Assembly: GCF_035975855.1 (NCBI RefSeq)
Contig: NZ_CP109055.1
Span: forward strand, 186,001-250,000
Length of the DNA: 64,000 nucleotides
Direction: 5' to 3'
Source of the DNA: Streptomyces sp. NBC_01304
Lineage (GTDB): Bacteria > Actinomycetota > Actinomycetes > Streptomycetales > Streptomycetaceae
In this document: positions 4,299-64,000 of the stretch, one piece after another
How positions within the stretch are numbered: position 1 is the first letter of the stretch
How the letters are laid out: each line of letters begins with the position of its first letter
The notes under the pieces: generated by a model
Told to the model about the DNA's origin: nothing
The model's database searches: none
Seen by the model: only the letters and a program-made list of their open reading frames with translations
Position numbers and translations under genes: made by a program

Positions 4299-4622
4299 GA
4301 CGCTGATTGTGCCGCCCACCACTGACAACGGCCGCGAGGAGTGCGTGAAGCAGCGGCTGGTCAGCAGGCCGACAAGGCCCGTGCCCCCTGCTTCGGAAGT
4401 GGAGCCGCTACGCCCCCTCCCGGGCTGGAGAAACTGCGTTGGATGCCGAGCTCGACCGTCGTCTGAGCGGCGCACAGCTGCCTGGGTGTGTCCGGGTTGA
4501 TGTACGCGACAACACCGCGAGCACGCAGTCCGAGCACGGGGAGAATCGGTGAGGCCCACTACAGTGCGCCCATCGGCCTCAGCCCCTGTTACAGCCCTGG
4601 AGGCCGGGGCCCTTCTCCGAGA

Positions 4623-5087
4623 TCACGCCTGGTCGTAGAACGTTCCCGCGTCGGTGGCGTCCCCGAGGACCTGCTCGACGAACTCTGCGTGCTCCACCGA
4701 GGAGTAGCGAAGTCGGCGCCAGCGCGACAGGTGGTCTGGGTGGCCGGCCCACCGCGAGGCGGTGTCGACGAGGCGGTTCCAGTCGGTGGCGATGCTCTGG
4801 CGCAGCATCTGGACGAGTCCGGGCTCCTGGATGCGTCGCTCACGGACCGTCACCTCCCAAGTGACCAGGTCGTCGTCGAGGTCACGGCAGTAGGTATCGA
4901 TCACCTGCGCCAGGTGTGCGGCGGTCCAGTGCGCATCGGTGCCCTCAATCTGGTTCTCGGCGAGCTCGCCGAACCGTGCGGCCAGGAACGCCTGCAGCGG
5001 ACGGACGTCCGCGCCACGCAGGTCGTCGGAGAACTCCAGAACGGCGGCCTGCTTGCCGACGGCGTCTTCGGGGTCGAGGTGGCTCAC
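4623..5087 (-). CDS. Hypothetical protein, 154 aa
   Basis: I do not recognise this family. The GTG at 5087 is preferred because GGAGGG lies just upstream at normal spacing, whereas the ATG at 5153 has no good ribosome site. The product is soluble, acidic and mostly helical. It is rich in tryptophan and histidine near residues 60-130, has no signal peptide or membrane segment, and shows one DLDDD stretch. It stands alone, divergent from the VOC gene at 5337. Confidence 0.6.
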   Translation of the reverse strand: MSHLDPEDAVGKQAAVLEFSDDLRGADVRPLQAFLAARFGELAENQIEGTDAHWTAAHLAQVIDTYCRDLDDDLVTWEVTVRERRIQEPGLVQMLRQSIATDWNRLVDTASRWAGHPDHLSRWRRLRYSSVEHAEFVEQVLGDATDAGTFYDQA

Positions 5088-5336
5088 GTGGCGGTTTCCC
5101 TCCCTCAGGACGGACCCGGCGTCCGCCCGGCCGTCCTGCCCTGTCTGTCGCATCGGATAACGAAGCTAGTCGACGCGATGGGGGCAAGCAGCCCGAACGT
5201 CCGGAACATCCCTCCGTCCGGCGACTGCCAGCGCAACGCGCCCGAGGGCGTGTTGCGAAAGTGTGTGCGGCGGCGGATGTGCCGTAGTACTCCTGAGGGG
5301 ACGTAGAGACACGTTTGTTCTCACTTGGAGTCGTCC

Positions 5337-5684
5337 ATGACCGTTCGCCGTGTCGTGCCCAACATCCAGTCGGAGGCCGCGCAGGAAAGCCGGGAGTTCT
5401 ATGGCCTGCTGGGCTTCGAGGAGGTCATGAACCACGGCTGGATCATGACGCTCGCCTCTCCGTCCACCCCGGCAGCGCAGATCAGCGTCATGACCAGTGA
5501 CAAGACCGCGCCTGTCACCCCCGATATGAGCGTCGAAGTGGACGACGTGGATGCGGCCTATGCGGTGATGCGGGAGAGCGGTGCGGAGATCGTGCACCCC
5601 TTGCAGGATGAGGAGTGGGGCGTGCGGCGGTTCTTCGTCCGCGACCCCAGCGGACGGGTGGTCAACGTGCTGGGCCACCGCTGA
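5337..5684 (+). CDS. VOC (glyoxalase/bleomycin-resistance) family protein
   Basis: A 115-residue single-unit vicinal oxygen chelate protein: N-terminal VVPNIQSE...SREFYGLLGFEEV, middle beta strands SVEVDDVDAAYAVMRESGAEIV, and the C-terminal FFVRDPSGRVVNVLGH motif. Members are metal-dependent lyases, dioxygenases or drug-binding proteins; the substrate cannot be read from the sequence. The ATG at 5337 follows TTGGAG at good spacing. It forms no operon with the next gene, whose start lies 115 bp downstream. Confidence 0.85.
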   Translation: MTVRRVVPNIQSEAAQESREFYGLLGFEEVMNHGWIMTLASPSTPAAQISVMTSDKTAPVTPDMSVEVDDVDAAYAVMRESGAEIVHPLQDEEWGVRRFFVRDPSGRVVNVLGHR

Positions 5685-5798
5685 CGACCTCTCCCGCACC
5701 CCTGGTGAACCTCACGGCCTGACTGAGGACCGAGCTCCCGAGGAACTCCCTCTACTGGTTACATTTGCACCTTCAGATGGGCCGCCCATCGATAGCGT

Positions 5799-6431
5799 GT
5801 GGTCGTGACGGAGCATTCGTATGACGCTGCTGACATCACGGTGCTGGATTTCGATGCCGTCGTGCGCAAACGACCGGGCATGTACTTCGGAGTGGGGCTC
5901 GGAAATCCGACGCTCCCAACCCACTTGATCTGCGCGGTGGGGCGCCATGTGCTTCATCCAGCGACAAGCGTTGCCGGGGAACACACACTGCATGGTCTCC
6001 TCGAGATCACCAGCGACAGCAGCTTCACAATATCCATCGACCAGGCTCACACCTGGGAAGCCTCCGGGGCCCCCGTTCCCGGTTACTTCGGCTCCCTCCT
6101 CGGCCCCGAGTGGTGGCTATTGGCAGCAGCTGCCGCGGTGTCCCGACAGACATCCGTGGAGATGTGGCACGCCGGGCGCGGATTGCGTCAAGTCCACACC
6201 GGCATCCGGCCTCTCACCGCTCCCCAAGAGTTCCATCCACCACAAGGCAGCGGCACGAGCGTGAGCTTCGCCTTCGACCCGGCATACGTCGGTCCCTATT
6301 TCGTACTCCCCGTGGACCTCGAGAGCCTCGACCTGCACGGTCCGGACTGCTCGCAACCGGCAGGCTCAGGCCATGTTCTGATCAGAGATGTCCGCTGCGG
6401 GCAAGCAGCGCGAGAGGTCTTGCACCACTGA
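5799..6431 (+). CDS. GyrB N-terminal-like protein lacking ATPase residues
   Basis: A 210-residue protein that opens like the GHKL ATPase of DNA gyrase B (VVRKRPGMYFG, residues 21-31) and ends with a strand resembling the later GyrB ATPase fold (GSGTSVSFAFDPAYV). The catalytic boxes are gone: the GyrB N-box Glu and Asn align to Ala and His in THLICAVGRHVLH, and the DxGxG box is replaced by DQAHTWEA. There is no transducer, TOPRIM or DNA-binding domain. It therefore cannot be a normal gyrase subunit and may bind or decoy one. GTG starts at 5799 and 5805 are both possible. Confidence 0.65.
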   Translation: MVVTEHSYDAADITVLDFDAVVRKRPGMYFGVGLGNPTLPTHLICAVGRHVLHPATSVAGEHTLHGLLEITSDSSFTISIDQAHTWEASGAPVPGYFGSLLGPEWWLLAAAAAVSRQTSVEMWHAGRGLRQVHTGIRPLTAPQEFHPPQGSGTSVSFAFDPAYVGPYFVLPVDLESLDLHGPDCSQPAGSGHVLIRDVRCGQAAREVLHH

Positions 6432-6587
6432 CCATCGGTGCCAGATCAGGAACGTCCCTCGAGGCGAACCACACCCAACCCGATTCGCCCAGTCACCTAC
6501 TCACGCGACCACCCCCGCCCCAGGGCCCCGGCGTATCCCGGTTGTCGGGTTCGCGGGGATCATGTGATGCCGTGGAGCGCGCTCCCG

Positions 6588-7472
6588 TCAGGTGTTCGGC
6601 AGGAGACGCAGGGTGAGGCCCAGTCGGCTGGGCCGTTCGGCCGTACTCTCCAGCGGGGAGTTGATGCGTGCGGTCTCCACGCACAGGAAGTGGCGGTAGT
6701 CCTCGTCCGTGAGGTCGACCATGGAGGCGGACAGTTCTGCGCCGGGATTCCAGACGACGACGTCGCTCGCCTCGTGGTGCGTGATCTCAAGGGTCTGGCC
6801 GCGGGCCTGGTCCGCGAGGACGCTGAGCCTCTCGGGATGTGTGTAGACCCGCTCAATGTGATCCTCGGGCGTCACCGCGCCGGCGGCATCGGCCCGGTCC
6901 GTCGCAAGAAGGTTGTCGCGAAACTGCGTACCGAGACCGGAGACCTCCGCCTGGCCGAGGGCGCCGATCGACAGGTAGGTGTGCAGGGCAGCTGTGCTGG
7001 TGTAGTCACCGTGCGCCTCGACCGCAATGTCGCACGCCGCGCCGAGCGTGATTCGAGTGCGCAGCGTGAACTCGTGCGGCCACATACGACGCGTCGATTC
7101 CGAGCTCTTGAGCTCCAGCGTCAGGCCGACCTTGTCCTCGATGTCGTCGTGCGCCGTGAGATCCCAATCAAGGAGGCGGGCGAACCCGTGCGACGGCTTT
7201 GCGACCGTGCCGAACCACGGCCAGCACAGGGGCACACCGCCCCGCACGGGCGTCCCCGCCCGCCACGTGTTCAGCTCGCCCAGCCACAAGAGCGGTTCGG
7301 ATCCCGTCGGTTGCCAGGCAACCAGCTGGCCGCCCTGGAGGCTGACCGCGCCCCTGACGCACGGGTGGTCGACGACCACGATCGAGAGGTCACCGAGCCG
7401 GCGGCGGGTCAGCGATGCCGACAACCGTTCGATGACAGGCAGGGCAAGGACAGTAGAGAACGCATCGTTCAT
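6588..7472 (-). CDS. D-hexose-6-phosphate mutarotase (aldose 1-epimerase-like)
   Basis: A 294-residue galactose-mutarotase-like protein predicted to interconvert alpha and beta anomers of hexose 6-phosphates in the cytoplasm. Diagnostic segments are RGGVPLCWPWFG, HGFARLLDWDL with the conserved His, and a late VVVWNPGAE...YRHFLCVETA segment carrying the general-base glutamate region. The ATG at 7472 begins MNDAFSTV, a usual start for the family, although the ribosome site is weak; the frame is open another 74 codons. A strong palindrome sits beyond its 5' side at 7755. Confidence 0.85.
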   Translation of the reverse strand: MNDAFSTVLALPVIERLSASLTRRRLGDLSIVVVDHPCVRGAVSLQGGQLVAWQPTGSEPLLWLGELNTWRAGTPVRGGVPLCWPWFGTVAKPSHGFARLLDWDLTAHDDIEDKVGLTLELKSSESTRRMWPHEFTLRTRITLGAACDIAVEAHGDYTSTAALHTYLSIGALGQAEVSGLGTQFRDNLLATDRADAAGAVTPEDHIERVYTHPERLSVLADQARGQTLEITHHEASDVVVWNPGAELSASMVDLTDEDYRHFLCVETARINSPLESTAERPSRLGLTLRLLPNT

Positions 7473-7754
7473 GTGACGACTCTTCAGAATCACGACAAAA
7501 GATGCAAGTCGCGCCATCACGAGGAGTCTCAGCTCGAGATCACACCCCGGCCGCCGCCCTTCGCCACCGCCCTGCAGCCCTGGGCCCCAGCACGACACGA
7601 CACCGTCCACTGGCCCACGACGCCCGACGCCCGTCGCCCCTGCCGGATGCTCCAGGCGCCGATCGGAGACACCCCCGGGAGAGAAGCGGCCCATGACACC
7701 CTCGCCCGCTACGAGTTACCTCGGGTGGGGCTCGTCCTGATAATCCGCTGACCA

Positions 7755-7798
7755 CCCCCGCGGGTGGGCTCCGGCATGCCGGAGCCCACCCGCGGGGG
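7755..7798. terminator. Perfect 44-bp palindrome, probable terminator
   Basis: Left arm CCCCCGCGGGTGGGCTCCGG plus CA, with an exact reverse complement directly after it: 22-bp arms and no loop. It lies between the mutarotase start and the lipoprotein stop, on the downstream side of the minus-strand lipoprotein gene. It could end that transcript and insulate the mutarotase promoter. Confidence 0.6.
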
Positions 7799-8019
7799 CG
7801 CCACACAACGTACGCCCCCGAAACCCCTTGGGCAGAACGCTCTCTACGTCATCCACAGTTCTTGAAAATTACTCGTGCCACGACGAGGGGCCGGGCCGGC
7901 GATGCCGGAACCCGCGCGGCAGGGGCAGGGCGGCCACGCAGGCGCGAAGGGGGGGCCTTCGCCGCTGGTGACCGGGGCTGCCGCCTGGGACAAGGTGGCC
8001 TGGAAGTCCAGGGCCTCGG

Positions 8020-8727
8020 CTACCAGTTGAGCGCGGCGGACTCGGTCTGCTGCCAGTAGGTGACCTTGGCCGTGTTGTCGCTGTACCACTTCACCGACGC
8101 CGGCAGCTCAAGGGTGACCCAGGGGCCCTCGACAACGGGCTCATCGCCCTCGCTGGCGTAACCCATGCCGATGGCCACCGAGGACGGGTCGAAGCCCTTG
8201 CCGTTCTCCTCGCTGATGTCCCCGGTGGAGATCCCGGCGTAGGCCGACTTGCCGGGCTTGAGCACGACCGTGGACTTCGGCAGGGTCTTCTCCTCGACCA
8301 TCGCCGCGGGATGGTCGTCGAAGGACGCCTCGGCGATCCAGGCCCAGCAGGCCTCGTCGCTGACGTTCTTGGCGGTGACGAGCAGCAGCGGAACCGTGCC
8401 GTTGGGGTTCTTCTCCGCGATGCTCATCTGCAGGCTGTCGCTGTTGCACTGCGGGACGTCGGTGCCGGGACCGTCGGCGTCGGCGCCACCGGCGCCGTTC
8501 CCGCCACTGGAGTTGCCGCCGCTGTTCCCGCCCTCGCTGGGCTTGGCGTCGCCGCTCGGCTTGGCGTCGCCCGTGGGCTTGGCGGAAGCGGTCGCGGACG
8601 GCGTGTCGGCAGGGGTGCCGGACGCGTCGCTGTCGCCGCTCGGGTCGCAGGCGGTGGACGTCAGGATCGTGGCGACGGCCGCCGCGCCGAGAGCGTACGA
8701 CTTCCAGGTCTTGCGAGCTGAATGCAT
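8020..8727 (-). CDS. Secreted lipoprotein, DUF4232-like
   Basis: A 235-residue lipoprotein: basic N-terminus, hydrophobic segment AAAVATILTSTAC (lipobox TSTAC, Cys27), then a low-complexity Ser/Pro/Gly/Asp linker with short KPSGDA-type repeats up to about residue 90. A folded beta-rich domain follows, from the CNSD segment to the end, with two cysteines and several tryptophans. This domain resembles DUF4232 of actinobacterial surface proteins, of unknown role. The ATG at 8727 has GGGGGAAG upstream. It is anchored to the outer face of the membrane. Confidence 0.75.
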   Translation of the reverse strand: MHSARKTWKSYALGAAAVATILTSTACDPSGDSDASGTPADTPSATASAKPTGDAKPSGDAKPSEGGNSGGNSSGGNGAGGADADGPGTDVPQCNSDSLQMSIAEKNPNGTVPLLLVTAKNVSDEACWAWIAEASFDDHPAAMVEEKTLPKSTVVLKPGKSAYAGISTGDISEENGKGFDPSSVAIGMGYASEGDEPVVEGPWVTLELPASVKWYSDNTAKVTYWQQTESAALNW

Positions 8728-8880
8728 GGTCTTCCCCCGTGGGACATTTCTTGGTCGGCGCGTACTGAACTGCCACACAGAGCGTGCACAGTCAGGTGGC
8801 CCAACTCGCGTGTGCCCCGCGACCGTTACGGATCACGTACACGGAAGTTGCCCTACCGTTCCGTCGCCTCAGGGCTCACC

Positions 8881-8901
8881 CTGAGACCGTGTTTGAGATC
8901 T
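8881..8901 (+). repeat. Left inverted repeat of IS5-type element
   Basis: Contains GAGACCGTGTTTGAGATCT. It pairs with 10396-10416 with one mismatch in 21 bases. Confidence 0.75.
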
Positions 8902-8969
8902 GGCCAGCCCAGGTTGTGTTGACGCGTTTGCTGTGCTCACTGTCGGCAGATGCCTCGGCAGGTCACCAG

Positions 8970-9473
8970 TCAGCTGAAGCCAAGTTCGGTGAAGGCACAA
9001 CCCCCGCGTTCGGCATAGGGCAATGCCTGCCGGGACACGAGCTTCGGAGTCTGCCGGACGTACTGATGGAAGCCCGAGGCCCGGAACTTCAAGTCAAACG
9101 CGTGGCCTTCGATGTGCCAGAGCGGACAGTGTGCAAAGTTCGGGCGGGCATCATTCGGCACTAGCCGGTGCACCCTGTCGACCTCCAAGTCCAGGGCGAA
9201 ACCCTTGAAGTCGAGGTCGCCCTCAAGGTCGAAGACATCGTCGAAAACGAGTGTCGCCGGAGAGACCCAGAATGAAAAGTGTGTTGCGGGCGGGACCGGG
9301 TGGACCCAGCGGACGATGTAGTCGAGGTCGAGGAGGAGACGCGGCAGGATGCCATGCGTCAGCTGGACGGACAAGCCGTGGACGGTGGCGTCATGCCACC
9401 CCATGTTTTCGAAATCCGCGTCGCTCCAGGTGCTCTTGGAGAGACCTGAATCCTCGTGGCTACCGTTGCCCAT
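8970..9473 (-). CDS. Immunity-like protein with WHDA motif
   Basis: A 167-residue soluble protein with NMGWHDATVHGLSV near the N-terminus, then LLLDLDYIVRW and FSFWVSPATLVFDDV. This pattern occurs in widespread small proteins often annotated as YxiG-like or polymorphic-toxin immunity proteins; the assignment is from memory of the pattern and is tentative. The ATG at 9473 and a TTG at 9485 are both possible, and GAGGTG precedes the TTG. It lies between a broken IS5 transposase and the left IS end with no toxin gene beside it, so it is an orphan. Confidence 0.55.
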   Translation of the reverse strand: MGNGSHEDSGLSKSTWSDADFENMGWHDATVHGLSVQLTHGILPRLLLDLDYIVRWVHPVPPATHFSFWVSPATLVFDDVFDLEGDLDFKGFALDLEVDRVHRLVPNDARPNFAHCPLWHIEGHAFDLKFRASGFHQYVRQTPKLVSRQALPYAERGGCAFTELGFS

Positions 9474-9543
9474 GTCCGAATCCAACCAGACACCTCAACG
9501 GAAGCAGTCGCAGGCCAGGCGCGGACGAGAGGGGACGGGGTCC

Positions 9544-10385
9544 TGGGCGTGAGGCTGGTCGGCCTCGAGTGGTTCGACGGACCATGATGCCGATCATCGC
9601 CCAGCGGATCATGGTCTCGGACCGGGGCCGGACTGGTTTCGTAGTCGCGGGCCAGGCGCCGGTGGGAGGTGATCCACGAGAGTGTGCGCTCGACGGCCCA
9701 CCGCTTCGACTGGACCTGGAAACCGCGCTGGCCCGGAGCCTTGCGCACGATCTCTAGCTCGCGGCCGAGGACGGTACTGGTCCACTCCACGAGGCGTCCG
9801 GCGAAGCCTTGATCGGCCCAGATCTTCTGCACGCCCGGGTGGTCCAGGCGGGTCCACAACAACGAACGCTTCGCGACGTCGCGGTCCTGGATGTTCGCTG
9901 CGACCACGTGGACCGCCAGAAGCAAGCCGAGGGTGTCCGTGCTGACCGCTTGCGGCCCTTCACCTCCCGACATCGAACCCTCTGGTCCCCACGGGCACTG
10001 TGTCGGCAGACCGAACCGACTGTGAATCGATCAGGCCCACGCTCGGCTCGGTGTCGCGTCCGACGGCATCGCGCACTTTGTCTCGCAGGGCGTCGTGGAT
10101 GCCCTCGACAGTGCCGTCGTCGTGCCACCAGGTGAAATACCACTACACCGTCGGCCAGGGCGGAAAGCCCTTCGGTAACTGCCGCCAGGCACACCCGGTC
10201 CGCACCACGTAGAAGATCGCGTCCACGATCCGCCGCCGTGGGTGCTTCTCTCGCCGCCCGCCCTTCGGCCCCACCCTCGCCGCTGGCAGCAACGGCTCGA
10301 TCAACACCCACTGCCCATCCGTCAGATCCGACGGGTACCCGCTCTCGGAACCACTCACCCAAGGCTCAACGGCCTCTCCAGCCAC
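9544..10385 (-). pseudogene. IS5-family transposase, frameshifted
   Basis: The N-terminal part from the ATG at 10385 reads YPSDLTDGQWVLIEPLLP...GGRREKHPRRRIVDAIFYVVRTGCAWRQLP, the normal beginning of IS5-type DDE transposases. The frame is then broken. The middle (ADQGFAGRLVEW) and end (VERTLSWITSHRRLARDYE) appear in another frame. A further one-base slip separates the last motif from a matching tail (ETMIRWAMIGIMVRRTTRG). At least two indels are needed, so no active enzyme is made. Confidence 0.85.
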
Positions 10386-59597: not shown

Positions 59598-61385
59598 TCA
59601 AAACTGCGTCCAGCGCTGCGAGGCCCGACCCGACTGGCAGTCCACGGTCTGCACCCCGTCGGCTACGTCCAATTCGAGGCAGCCGTCGCTGGCGGCACTG
59701 ATGAGGGAGGAGCCCGAGCCCGATATCCAGAGCCGGCCGGAGCCCATGTCGCAGTTCTTGACGAAGACGGCCTGGTCCTTCAGAGAGCTCCCCGCAAGGC
59801 ACCCTCCGGTGGACTTGTTGACCAGCTTGTAGGTGCCGCCCGCGCCGCTGCGGATGGTCCAGTAGGCCGAGGCGCCGGAGCAGCCACCCGTATAGGCGGA
59901 CCCGGATTCCCCATTCAGGCAGGTGCCGTCATTGCCGTTGCGCAACCGGAAGCTGCCCGTGGCGGGGGCGGTGGTGGGCGCCTTGGTGGCCGTACCACCC
60001 GAGCTCGACCCCGTACCGCCAGAGCTGTCGGACGAATCGCCGGAGCCTCCCGACGTACTGGTGGAACCCCCGGGAGCCTCCCCGGAATCGTCCGATCCGG
60101 ACGACGTACCGGAATCGCCCTTCCCGGTGGAGTCCTGCTCCTTGCCGCCCTTCTTGCCCCGGTCGGGCTTTTTGTCCTCTCTGTCCGCGCTATTGGACGG
60201 CGAGGCGGCAGGGGTCGTCGAAGCAGTCACAGGCGGAGCCGCCTTGTCCGGCCCGGGAGCGGACACATGCGGAAGCAGCTGTACGGCGATCAAGGTCGCT
60301 GCGCCCGTCACGACGATCGGCACGACACCGAACACGAGAGTGCGGGAGCGGCGGCGCTGCGGCCGGAGCGTGGCGGCGGCGGCCCCGTCGGCGGGGGTGG
60401 GCTGCTCGTTCTCAGGGGTCGCACGGACTACGGGCGGCACATCCGGCGGGGGCACCTGCGCCGCGAACTCCGCGCGGACGGCGAGGCGGTCGGCCAGCGC
60501 CGGCGGCCAGCTGTTCGGCAGTGACGGGCGCTCGAGCGCTACCCGGTCGGCCAGCTCGGCGGCGGTGGGGCGGCCCTCGGGGTTCTTGTCGAGACAGTCG
60601 GCGACCAGCGCGGCGAGGGAGGGATCGGCCGCACGCAGCGCTTCGAGATCGGGTTCCTCGTGCACGATCCGGTAGAGGAGGCCGAGGCCCGCGCCCTCGC
60701 CGAAGGGGGCCAGGCCGCCCGACGCGTACGCGAGCAGTGAACCGAGGGCGAAGACGTCGGCGGCGCCCGTCAACAGCCGTGAACCCGAGGCCTGTTCAGG
60801 TGCCATGTAGGCCGGAGTGCCGGCCACCATCCCGGTCTGGGTGAGGCGTGACTGGTCGGCGGCGCGGGCGATGCCGAAGTCGATGAGGGTGACGCCGTCC
60901 GTCGTCAGCATGACGTTCGACGGCTTGAGGTCGCGGTGGACCATGTCCAGTGCATGCACCGGGGCGAGCGCGGCGGCCGTTTCCCGCAGCAGCAGCCACA
61001 GCGCGTCCGAGGGGAGCCCGACCTCGCCCTTCGTGGTCGTCACGGCCTCTGTGAGTGTGAGCCCCGGAACGTACGCGGTGGCGAACCACGGCGGCCGGGC
61101 CTCCCGGTCGGAGGCGAGCAGCGGTGCGGTGGCCCCCTCCGGCAGCCGGGAGAGATTGTCCAGCTCGTGCCCGAAGTGGCGGAGGAAGTTGTCGTCCTCG
61201 GCGAGCAGCGGAAGGACCTGCTTCACGGCCGCGAACCGGCCCTCGGTAACCCCCAGGTAGACCCGGCCCATACCGCCCGAACCGAGCCGTCCGAGCAGCG
61301 GGATCGACCCGATTCGTGCTGGATCGTCGTTCCCCAGCGGAACCGCCCCGCTGCCCGTCAGGCCGAAGTCGTCCCCCGTGCTCAC
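59598..61385 (-). CDS. Ser/Thr protein kinase with ricin-like ectodomain
   Basis: A 595-residue receptor-type PknB-like kinase. The cytoplasmic kinase domain (about 25-290) has the glycine loop LGSGGMG, Lys55, HRDLKPSN (150-157), DFG (169-171) and GTPAYMAPEQ. After a Pro-rich juxtamembrane segment comes one helix (TLVFGVVPIVVTGAATLIAV), a Ser/Gly/Asp-rich linker, and an outer ricin-type domain (RNGNDGTCLNGESGSAYTGG through QSGRASQRWTQF) with six cysteines. The GTG at 61385 follows TTGAGG. The lectin part suggests it senses a sugar or cell-wall fragment; the PASTA repeats of PknB are absent. Confidence 0.9.
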   Translation of the reverse strand: MSTGDDFGLTGSGAVPLGNDDPARIGSIPLLGRLGSGGMGRVYLGVTEGRFAAVKQVLPLLAEDDNFLRHFGHELDNLSRLPEGATAPLLASDREARPPWFATAYVPGLTLTEAVTTTKGEVGLPSDALWLLLRETAAALAPVHALDMVHRDLKPSNVMLTTDGVTLIDFGIARAADQSRLTQTGMVAGTPAYMAPEQASGSRLLTGAADVFALGSLLAYASGGLAPFGEGAGLGLLYRIVHEEPDLEALRAADPSLAALVADCLDKNPEGRPTAAELADRVALERPSLPNSWPPALADRLAVRAEFAAQVPPPDVPPVVRATPENEQPTPADGAAAATLRPQRRRSRTLVFGVVPIVVTGAATLIAVQLLPHVSAPGPDKAAPPVTASTTPAASPSNSADREDKKPDRGKKGGKEQDSTGKGDSGTSSGSDDSGEAPGGSTSTSGGSGDSSDSSGGTGSSSGGTATKAPTTAPATGSFRLRNGNDGTCLNGESGSAYTGGCSGASAYWTIRSGAGGTYKLVNKSTGGCLAGSSLKDQAVFVKNCDMGSGRLWISGSGSSLISAASDGCLELDVADGVQTVDCQSGRASQRWTQF

Positions 61386-61570
61386 CGCTGCCTCAACTCC
61401 CCGTGTGTCCAACCGATTTGGCGCGGGTCGACGCCCACCTCGCCCCCTGTGGGAGGGGCGGCCGTCAGTCCGCGCCAAGTGTGGCTGATCAAGCGACAGA
61501 AGTGGAAGCCGAATCCACGCGGCTTGGGTGAAGTTCGGTGCTGATTGACGGATCCTGTCGCGTCGGCGGG

Positions 61571-61790
61571 TCAGGGCCTCGTCGAGGCCTCGCCGATGTC
61601 CTTGGTGCCGGTCTGGGTTCGCTGTGGGTAGTCCTCGTACTTCGCCTGCCGCCAGACCAGCTCGATAGCGTTCAACTCCGGGCCGTATGGCGGCAGATGG
61701 ATCAGCTCCACCCCGGTCTTCGCCAGGTGGCGGCGGCGGCCCTTGAATGCCTTGGCCATGTGCGCGGACGCGTTGGCGAAGGGCCTGTTG
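61571..61790 (-). pseudogene. IS630-family transposase C-terminal fragment
   Basis: Reads ASAHMAKAFKGRRRHLAKTG, VELIHLPPYGPELNAIELVW and RQAKYEDYPQR, the last third of an IS630 DDE transposase with its final catalytic Glu (ELNAIELVW). The front is missing. It begins right where the recombinase part of the next gene breaks off. Confidence 0.75.
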
Positions 61791-61818
61791 TGCCTCCGAG
61801 TTGCTGAGCGTGCGGTGT

Positions 61819-63789
61819 TCAGGGGCGGGGTTTGAGCTGTCGGAGGGTGTAGCCGTTGCCCGTGGGGTCGATGGGCTTGGTGGCCTGTTTGAAGAGGTAT
61901 TCGGCCCGTTCGTAGGAGAGCCGGTTGCGGCCGGTGTCCGGGCACAGGTCGGTGTGGGTGGGTGTCCGGGCGGGGCCGGGTCGGCGGTCGGTGAGGAAGA
62001 GGGGGCCCCTGGTGCGGCCGGCCACCAGGGCGGGGAGAAGTCGGGCGGTCGCGGAGCGCCAGTGCACCCAGGTGTCGCCGGTGCGGGCCCGGCGGTCGTC
62101 CAGGTCCAGGTCTTCGATGTTGAGGGAGAGGACGGTTGTCACGGCGGCCGCGGACTCGTGGAGGAGCCGCCACAGGGTGTGTTCGCGTAGCGGCAGGTCG
62201 GGGTTGTTCCAGAGCGTGTCGAGCTGTGCCGGTTCCAGGCGTTGTGTCGTGTGGGGGGTCTGGGTGCGCCGGTCCAGGGCGGCGGTGAGGTCATCGATGT
62301 GGGCCCAGGCGCAGAAGGATCGGAGGGTCGAGCGGTGGCGGTTCCAGGTGGTGGGTGCGGCCTGGCCCCAGGCGGTCGTGAAGACCTGAGCCACCTGGTC
62401 GCAGGTCAGTGAGGCCAGTGGCTGCTGGTCGCCCAGGGTTCGGCGCAGCCGTTTCAGTGTCTGGGTGTACGAGCGGATCGTCGGGGCGTCGAGATCGTCG
62501 CGTTGGAGGAAGTCCTGGGCGGCCCGGGCGAGCGTGGGGCCGTGGGTGTCGGTCGCGGTGATCTCGTCGGCGCGGCGGCGCAGGAAGGCGCGTTCGGCGG
62601 CGTTGTGCGTGAGGGATGCTGCGCGTTCGAACTCGTGCCGGGCTTCGGTGGAGCGTCCGAGCCGGAGCAGGAGGTCGCCCCGGACGCCGGGGAGCAGGTG
62701 GTAGTCCTTCAGCGTGGGATCGGCGGTCAGGGAGTCGACCAGGTCGAGCCCTTGCTGGGGACCGTGCGCCATGCCCACGGCCACGGCTCGGTTGAGCTGC
62801 ACGACGGGTGTCGGCAGCAGCCTGGCGAGGGCCTCGTACAGGGCCGCGATCTGCGCCCAGTCGGTGTCCTTCGCGGTCGGCGCCTGCGCGTGGCTCACGG
62901 CGATCGCCGCCTGCAGGACGTAGGGCCCGGCGGGACCGCCGATTTCCCGCGCGCGCAGCATCGCGGCGAAGCCACGGCGGATCAGCAGCTGGTCCCAGCG
63001 GCCCCGGTTCTGCTCGTGCAGCGGGATGGGCTCGCCCGCGGGGCCGGTACGCGCGGCAGAACGGGACTCATGGAGCTCCATCAGCGCGACGAGGCCCTGG
63101 ACTTCGGCTTCTTGCGGGGCAAGTTCAGCAAGGAGACGGCCGAGCCTCAGGGCCTCAAGGGTGAGCCCGGGCCGCATCAGGTCGTCGCCCGTTGTCGCCG
63201 CATAGCCTTCGTTAAAGATCAGGTAGATGACCTCGAGTACCGAGTTCAGGCGTTCGGCCAGCTCGGCGCCCTCCGGGAGCTCGAACGATGCCTGTGTATC
63301 GGCCAGCGTGCGTTTCGCGGTGGCGATGCGCTGGGCGATCGTCTGCTCGCCGACGAGGAATGCCCGTGCGATCTCTGCGGCGGTCAGGCCGCCCAGGAGG
63401 CGCAGGGTGAGCGCGACGCGTGTGGGGGTCGCCAGCACGGGGTGGCAGGAGATGAACATCAGCCGCAGGACGTCGTCCTGGTCGGGGTCCTGATCAGTGG
63501 AGGGCTGGTGTTCCAGCTCGTGGGCGAGCTGCTGCTGCTTGCGTTCCAGATTCTGGGTGCGCCGGATGTGATCAACGGCGCGGCGCTTGGCGATCGCGGA
63601 CAGCCAGGCACCGGGATTGTTCGGGATGCCCGACTGAGGCCATTGCTCGAGCGCGGCGACGAGGGCGTCCTGCGCCAGTTCCTCGGCGAGTCCGACGTCT
63701 CGCACCATCCGGGTGAGCCCGGCAATGATCTTGGCTGACTCGAGTTTGAAGACGGCGTCGATGGTGCGATGGGTGTCGCTCACGGGCAT
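61819..63789 (-). CDS. ECF42-type sigma factor fused to truncated tyrosine recombinase
   Basis: 656 residues in one frame. Residues 1-170 are sigma regions 2 and 4 (LAEELAQDALVAALEQWP; GLTAAEIARAFLVGEQTIAQ). Residues 180-405 are the long tetratricopeptide-type tail of ECF42 factors (NEGYAAT, LNRAVAVGMAHGP, YHLLPGVRGDLLLRLGR). After a short linker, residues 418-656 are a recombinase: core-binding domain (FLQRDDLDAPTIRSYTQTLK) and part of the catalytic domain (LSLNIEDLDLDDRRAR; PLFLTDRRPG). The catalytic Arg position reads SAAAVTT, and the protein stops at TLRQLKPRP before HxxR and Tyr, so no recombination is expected. The ATG at 63789 follows GGGGCGG. The DGPF gene is just upstream. Confidence 0.85.
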   Translation of the reverse strand: MPVSDTHRTIDAVFKLESAKIIAGLTRMVRDVGLAEELAQDALVAALEQWPQSGIPNNPGAWLSAIAKRRAVDHIRRTQNLERKQQQLAHELEHQPSTDQDPDQDDVLRLMFISCHPVLATPTRVALTLRLLGGLTAAEIARAFLVGEQTIAQRIATAKRTLADTQASFELPEGAELAERLNSVLEVIYLIFNEGYAATTGDDLMRPGLTLEALRLGRLLAELAPQEAEVQGLVALMELHESRSAARTGPAGEPIPLHEQNRGRWDQLLIRRGFAAMLRAREIGGPAGPYVLQAAIAVSHAQAPTAKDTDWAQIAALYEALARLLPTPVVQLNRAVAVGMAHGPQQGLDLVDSLTADPTLKDYHLLPGVRGDLLLRLGRSTEARHEFERAASLTHNAAERAFLRRRADEITATDTHGPTLARAAQDFLQRDDLDAPTIRSYTQTLKRLRRTLGDQQPLASLTCDQVAQVFTTAWGQAAPTTWNRHRSTLRSFCAWAHIDDLTAALDRRTQTPHTTQRLEPAQLDTLWNNPDLPLREHTLWRLLHESAAAVTTVLSLNIEDLDLDDRRARTGDTWVHWRSATARLLPALVAGRTRGPLFLTDRRPGPARTPTHTDLCPDTGRNRLSYERAEYLFKQATKPIDPTGNGYTLRQLKPRP

Positions 63790-63838: not shown

Positions 63839-64000
63839 TCACTGGCCGAACACCTGCCGGATCTCGCTCTCGCCGTCACCGACGATCTTGCGGAAGCGGC
63901 GGGCCAGCTCGATGGCCTCTTCCTGTGAGCGGGCCTCGATCAGTGCGAAGCCCACCACGGCCTCCTTGGCCTCGGCGAACGGTCCGTCCGTCACCGTGAT
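63839..64000 (-). CDS. YCII/DGPF-domain protein, partial
   Basis: The visible C-terminal 53 residues read ITVTDGPFAEAKEAVVGFAL, then IEARSQEEAIELARRFRKIV and end REIRQVFGQ-like (SEIRQVFGQ). This is the DGPF form of the YCII family. The 5' part lies beyond the window. Its stop is 49 bp before the sigma factor start, the usual gene order for ECF42 sigma factors, whose activity is thought to depend on the sigma C-terminal tail and on DGPF partners. Confidence 0.85.
   Translation of the reverse strand: MTVTDGPFAEAKEAVVGFALIEARSQEEAIELARRFRKIVGDGESEIRQVFGQ

Follow-up and report, generated by a model that had tools for sequence, protein, structure and literature searches.

An ECF42-type sigma factor fused to a catalytically inactive tyrosine-recombinase domain, a candidate reader of its own promoter

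A gene in a 64,000-nucleotide stretch of Streptomyces sp. NBC_01304 (positions 186,001 to 250,000 of contig NZ_CP109055.1; hereafter the window) encodes an ECF42-type sigma factor joined in frame to the DNA-binding part of a tyrosine recombinase that has lost its catalytic residues. Sigma factors are thought to find promoters by their own regions 2 and 4, aided by separate activators. We propose that here, probably, a domesticated half-site reader guides the sigma factor to the promoter of its own operon, largely in place of -35 recognition. What is new is a 13-bp arm that lies upstream of all fused operons tested and is absent from the unfused ECF42 loci compared with them. A literature search limited to papers available without subscription found no published account of a sigma-recombinase fusion; the available portions of PMC11256431 and PMC11119718 mention DUF6596 and no integrase. 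According to the accessible part of PMC8999054, control of ECF42 factors is believed to work by contacts that their TPR extension makes with other proteins. Loci, genomes and contigs are cited below by L, G and C numbers.

Architecture and neighbourhood of the fused gene

The preliminary description of this DNA placed a complete ECF42 sigma factor, tail included, and a recombinase in one uninterrupted frame, and both points are borne out. The frame runs from an ATG at 63789 and encodes 656 residues (Table 1); an alternative upstream start, GTG 63879, would give 686. Pfam matches in the 686-residue numbering are Sigma70_r2 (55-109), r4_2 (141-192), DUF6596 (210-310) and Phage_int_SAM_1 (466-526), and all other residue numbers here refer to the 656-residue form, which are lower by 30. 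The ECF42 traits present are sigma regions 2 and 4 without region 3, a DUF6596/TPR-rich C-terminal extension of about 200 residues (DUF6596 by its match to PF20239, the TPR part by alignment with unfused ECF42), and a DGPF/YCII gene immediately upstream. The genome holds four unfused ECF42 genes, the closest of which is 62% identical over residues 8-403 of the fused protein.

Beyond the linker, the core-binding and catalytic fold of tyrosine recombinases is present, with the catalytic domain only half there. The modelled domain has the fold of recombinases solved on DNA, with matches to lambda Int, XerH, Tn1549 Int and Cre; the predicted structure of the full-length protein is poor (mean pLDDT 69) and too weak to place the domains. 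About 45 bp past the stop of the fused gene is what remains of an IS630-type transposase, and just beyond it is a gene for a serine/threonine protein kinase with a C-terminal ricin-type lectin domain (59598-61478, minus strand). Across the family, a DUF998 gene is adjacent and divergent in 62 of 81 fused loci.

Table 1. Features of the fused locus (window positions; residues in the 656-residue numbering)
Feature	Position	Strand	Evidence
Fused gene, ECF42-type sigma factor plus pseudo-recombinase, 656 aa	61819..63789	-	ORF translation, Pfam, family conservation
Sigma region 2, residues 25-79	63553..63717	-	Pfam PF04542
Sigma region 4, residues 111-162	63304..63459	-	Pfam PF08281
Codon 157, Thr in the window copy	63319..63321	-	alignment
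DUF6596, residues 180-280, opening the ECF42 C-terminal extension	62950..63252	-	Pfam PF20239
ECF42 C-terminal extension continued as far as residue 405, followed by a short linker	62575..62949	-	alignment with unfused ECF42
Tyrosine-recombinase core-binding domain, about residues 415-510	62260..62547	-	PF02899, fold match
Catalytic-domain N-terminal half, catalytic residues lost, about residues 515-652, stopping at box II	61834..62247	-	
DGPF/YCII gene, 3' part, first gene of the operon	63839..64000	-	ATG at 64162, outside the window
IS630-type transposase remnant (DDE_3), decayed, outside the fused gene and not part of the system	61634..61774 (remnant 61571-61820)	-	Pfam
Palindrome of the window operon	G000:C1:250217-250250, equal to 64217-64250 counted past the window end		

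Arms and promoters of the fused operons

First, we compared the upstream regions of fused and unfused loci. The arm TTCCCTGTCACAT, scored at 11 or more matches out of 13 on either strand within 260 bp upstream, is found at all 82 fused loci with a YCII hit, as against none of 28 unfused ECF42 loci. This count leaves aside L044, L105 and four unfused loci in which YCII had no hit; L210, a longer stretch of L105, has two arms. Inverted arms, ATGTGACAGGGAA with TTCCCTGTCACAT at 21 or more matches out of 26, lie upstream of the DGPF/YCII gene in 66 of 77 fused loci, with spacers of 8 bp (52 loci), 9 bp (9), 10 bp (3), 12 bp (1) and 16 bp (1). The commonest arrangement, 13-8-13, has the geometry of loxP. 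Single arms occur on the right in L035, L039 and L066 and on the left in L060, L091 and L092. The palindrome of the window operon, ATGTGACAGGGAA-CGCCGCCA-TTCCCTGTCACAT, is perfect (26/26) and ends 54 bp before the YCII start.

The site is rare outside this context. The exact palindrome occurs in six of 394 genomes, once in each, with no occurrence of a reversed control pattern; four of the six sites are at fused operons, one is near a free recombinase (G241) and one is at the edge of an insertion (G315). The pattern TCCCTGTCACAT followed after 7-11 bp by CGACG is present in eight of the 394 genomes, each time at a fused locus. Only one more sampled genome, the ninth, has a fusion of the truncated type; in this genome, G180, the two arms of the site are altered alike. 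The site is carried by the genomes of both L099 (G180) and L101 (G267). With arms at every tested fused operon and, in 394 genomes, the exact palindrome near members of this family only, the earlier suggestion of a new way to target a sigma factor now has strong genomic evidence behind it.

Symmetric changes in the two arms were also seen in L024, L027, L059 and L209 (for example GTGGCAGGGAA with TTCCCTGCCAC), which suggests that within a species both arms follow the same reader. We considered a wide regulon and rejected it: in its own genome, the arm at one mismatch or fewer is found only at the promoter of the fused operon and as one single arm at 8539951, the latter without CGACG in the stretch inspected. 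Since the genome holds no second site with a -10 element, a local two-way autoregulatory switch at the operon itself is expected.

Second, we analysed the promoters in which the arms lie. The standard ECF42 promoter motif is a TGTCGA -35 with a CGACG -10. Unfused ECF42 operons have TGTCG(N)-N16..18-CG in 22 of 28 cases. In early-branching fusions the upstream arms are direct and number one or two; six of the eight examined have the standard promoter pattern too, the altered forms in L104 and G016 giving no match. L090, L095 and L106 have the start of the arm 41-43 bp before that of the -35 element; in L081, L103 and L107 this interval is 52-54 bp, about one helical turn more.

Throughout the main clade TGTCGA is gone from the -35 place. 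CGACG follows the right arm at 8-9 bp in 65 of 66 loci, and 59 of the 66 also have a CGACG-type box (CGACG, CGTCG or CGATG) at this distance on the outer side of the left arm; L042, L048, L058 and L062 have a perfect left arm without a left -10. "Canonical" matches in L059, L065 and L072 sit upstream of the arms, and these loci are counted as arm-type. The window operon keeps CGACG and lacks TGTCGA, and we therefore file its protein as ECF42-derived and not as a standard member. Two divergent promoters with a common centre account for part of the palindrome. As its sole origin, divergent promoters are only partly true: the four loci just named keep the left arm with no -10, but the loci with a right arm only have lost the left one.

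The sigma factor changed in the same lineage. Residue 157 is Arg in 32/32 unfused ECF42 rows and 8/8 early-branching fusions, and in only two of 75 main-clade loci (L089 and L092); L101, a truncated-type locus outside the 75, also keeps it, and L099 has Gly. The main clade has various residues in its place (A, G, E, T, D, S, V among them), with K in four loci. The Arg of the sigma-H FRAR motif is presumably R176 in E. coli sigma-E numbering. Residue 157 aligns with this Arg in P. aeruginosa sigma-H (6in7), and the available portion of PMC6713349 reports a hydrogen bond from R176 to the first base of the -35. Because the main clade is a single lineage, its loss of both TGTCGA and Arg157 amounts in essence to one event and not to a set of independent ones. 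L089, L092 and L101 have arm-type promoters yet retain Arg157, which suggests that loss of the Arg came after the arrival of the arms.

Free-standing recombinases and the origin of the site

The same palindrome (21 or more of 26 matches) is present at six of 27 free-recombinase loci scanned (19 long stretches and eight short ones), namely at five intact genes and at a remnant in G315, and the six include both closest free relatives of the fused domain. The spacers are 7 bp in L084, L170, L171 (the G315 remnant), L172 and L174, and 6 bp in L173; in L172 and L173 the palindrome lies at or just before the recombinase gene. It was not found at the other 21 loci (the eight short stretches, L175, L185 and L186-L196, which are more distant), a point against the reading proposed here that would fit if more distant free recombinases read other sites; L175 and L185 are themselves close to L110. 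For each of nine stretches with the site, including L111-L113 as shorter stretches of the L172-L174 loci, none of 200 shuffled sequences reached the palindrome score, and the score of L175 is at shuffle level. An ECF hit is present in just one of the 19 long stretches, L171, and the arms therefore go with the recombinase and not with the sigma factor.

The two closest relatives, L084 and L170, have domains 57-58% identical to the fused one and the same 13-bp arms, here around a 7-bp spacer, with no sigma domain; L084 has all six catalytic residues and L170 has box II and the Tyr. In G241 the exact palindrome lies 0.9 kb from an intact free recombinase. That genome holds both a fused gene (C58) and L170, the closest intact free recombinase (C64), with a perfect 13-7-13 site. 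A frame between the site and the L170 gene contains SNQKGG, resembling a broken ParA-type start, from which the carrier may be an integrated plasmid. At L084, a pentapeptide-repeat-like protein, recognised by eye, is encoded between palindrome and recombinase gene (4542-5639). A viral carrier was considered and rejected, as IMG/VR contained neither a relative of the L170 recombinase nor the exact palindrome.

At L171 (G315:C50, about 5150-10034) an insertion of roughly 4.9 kb splits an unfused ECF42 gene inside region 4. The palindrome stands at one junction; about 4.7 kb from it, near the other edge, a recombinase core-binding domain survives in part, with a single exact arm beside it. Other frames in the insertion are transporter-like and TetR-like by eye. 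The arms here mark an integration edge, as expected of a recombinase site. The insertion shows at least one entry of such an element into an ECF42 gene and so hints at how recombinase and sigma factor may first have met.

These data bear on two other readings of the arms. According to one, sigma region 4 reads them as a changed, doubled -35 element and the recombinase domain does another job, such as dimerisation or protein contact. The CGACG-type boxes outside both arms would suit this, as would the sufficiency of a single arm in some loci and the change of region 4 in the same clade. We nevertheless consider it unlikely, because the palindrome occurs without an ECF hit in the stretch retrieved at all five intact free-recombinase loci (the sixth site, in G315, does sit in a split unfused ECF42 gene), the arm is apart from an intact TGTCGA -35 in early-branching fusions, four loci have a perfect left arm and no left -10, and the base-reading Arg was mostly lost rather than exchanged.

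The other reading takes the palindrome as the operator of a separate regulator, or as an attB of free recombinases, with the fused domain as a passenger. It draws on the presence of the same site at free recombinases and at the insertion edge in G315, so that promoters could be targets. Spacers, however, are 8 bp or more at fused loci and 6-7 bp at free ones; ten of 15 genomes with a fused gene in the 394-genome class sample have no other domain match; early-branching loci show direct arms and not a core site; and the fused domain is under purifying selection. Taken together, these points leave it improbable, and reading of the arms by the fused domain itself is preferred.

Catalytic decay, descent and a model

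Third, we examined the active site. The catalytic set of active tyrosine recombinases (Arg, Lys, His, Arg, His/Trp, Tyr) is absent from the window copy, which has Ala, a gap, Arg, Lys, a gap and a gap at the columns of the box-I Arg, the Lys, the box-II His, the box-II Arg, the third-box His and the Tyr, respectively. These losses at the alignment columns support the earlier view that an inactive recombinase could add only binding functions. Free recombinases retain the box-I Arg in 15/15 rows and the Tyr in 13/15; fused rows retain the Arg in 3/88 and the Tyr in 1/88 (L081), with Phe for Tyr in four. The surviving forms can be set out as three stages: (i) a near-complete domain with Tyr (L081), (ii) near-complete domains with Phe for Tyr (L103, L104, L105 and L107), and (iii) domains that stop at box II. 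It could be supposed that a frameshift or readthrough supplies the rest of the recombinase and that the domain is still an enzyme, and box II with the following region is indeed kept in some early-branching members. The residue counts argue against this, and no C-terminal remnant was found in any frame within 500 bp downstream of 90 loci, where only the own tails of L103-L105 matched; we rate it very improbable.

Searching with the C-terminal region as query gave 525 proteins at E <= 0.001. Among the best 120 of these, 117 also carry the DUF6596 label and 118 have a TLxxL motif within 60 residues of the C-terminus, near box II; their genera include Streptosporangium, Streptomyces, Amycolatopsis and Saccharopolyspora. 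A scan of GTDB representatives yielded 217 loci encoding a relative, of which 80 were retained. The domain is matched at E <= 1e-5 in 65 of the 394 genomes of the class, free-standing and fused forms together, and at least 15 of those 65 have the fused form, as judged by sigma motif or ECF hit in the best 30 loci. In the phylum sample, four of 296 genomes match at E <= 1e-30, namely the genome studied here and three with frames of 301-319 aa.

Quick trees separate the fused proteins in both parts. The domain tree places 86 fused rows on one side of a branch and 13 free rows on the other, with an SH-aLRT of 85, which is not strong; the sigma tree splits 84 fused from 32 unfused rows with a support of 99. 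L097-L102, L115, L119-L121 and L038 were left out of the former, and L030, L038 and L071, in which the sigma part is broken or cut, out of the sigma alignment. Among L097-L102 only L097, L098, L100 and L102 are duplicates; L099 and L101 are distinct, and we assign them to the main clade on the strength of truncated ends and promoter type and not from a position in the tree. Median dN/dS (Nei-Gojobori, 23 non-overlapping pairs) is 0.31 for the core-binding and 0.25 for the pseudo-catalytic part, and exceeds 1 in a single pair with very low dS; the added recombinase domain has therefore been kept by selection. On this sequence evidence, the fused proteins are a conserved actinobacterial family under purifying selection. 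The fused gene of L062 (Rhodococcus rhodnii NRRL B-16535) is 92% identical to the Kibdelosporangium aridum copy, and the record may be misnamed. The idea that a rearrangement made the fusion by chance and that an IS630 insertion then truncated it, to which the DDE_3 remnant gave some colour, has next to no likelihood left, because more than 80 loci of many genera share junction and end point, the family is under purifying selection, and nothing of the missing C-terminus was found within 500 bp downstream.

Based on these observations, we propose the following model. In one ancient fusion, an ECF42-type sigma factor would have gained a tyrosine recombinase whose target was a 13-bp half-site; the recombinase part would then have lost catalysis and retained its DNA-binding part, and half-sites would have been built into the divergent promoter region of the DGPF-sigma operon and, usually, the DUF998 gene. 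The tethered domain may bind an arm and bring RNA polymerase holoenzyme to both promoters. In early-branching members the arms would serve much as an activator site does, upstream of an ordinary TGTCGA-N17-CGACG promoter. Members of the main clade, including the window protein, would use the arm in place of the -35 (arm, 8-9 bp, CGACG), with region 2 reading CGACG and with a region 4 that is nearly always without the Arg expected to read a -35. A point against the model is that the truncated domain is missing C-terminal helices that, in complete enzymes, also contact DNA. With somewhat less assurance than we attach to the half-site reader as such, we lean towards the fuller history, in which -35 recognition was handed to a domesticated recombinase, a dead loxP/dif-like crossover site became a two-way promoter, and the early lineages preserve an upstream-activator stage.

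How does this arrangement compare with known systems? The fused family resembles ECF42 factors such as Sven_0747, Sven_7131, Sven_4377 and P. putida ECF-10 in regions 2 and 4, the DUF6596/TPR extension, the DGPF/YCII gene and the CGACG -10, as far as the accessible parts of PMC8999054 and PMC6180224 describe them; it differs in its extra domesticated recombinase domain and in main-clade promoters that have recombinase arms instead of a TGTCGA -35. With MrpR-type regulators it shares the recombinase fold, catalysis being lost in the fused family. MrpR (YopR), the SPbeta master repressor (PDB 8A0A), is described in the available text of PMC10516654 as stand-alone, with a full-length catalytic domain that includes the Tyr and with no sigma fusion. 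The MrpR type is a stand-alone prophage repressor, whereas the fused protein belongs to a DGPF-sigma operon; from genomic association, the fused domain may act on transcription by binding a conserved DNA element, as MrpR-type regulators do. SroF of phage phi3T (PDB 9rd5/9rgl), in the partial account available, is likewise a stand-alone repressor, unlike the fused protein. Cre-loxP, Xer-dif and lambda Int core sites have the same two inverted arms around a short spacer, and their enzymes match in fold, but the window protein is without the catalytic Arg, His, Arg and Tyr, and its site is a promoter.

The sigma factor has thus apparently taken in its own sequence-specific reader, from a mobile-element enzyme and together with that enzyme's DNA site. 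Living lineages preserve what appear to be the stages, from free enzyme through fusions with arms upstream to arms that replace the -35. If this is true, it would be a route by which promoter specificity changes, and synthetic biology would gain a sigma factor that is portable and has a long target of high specificity.
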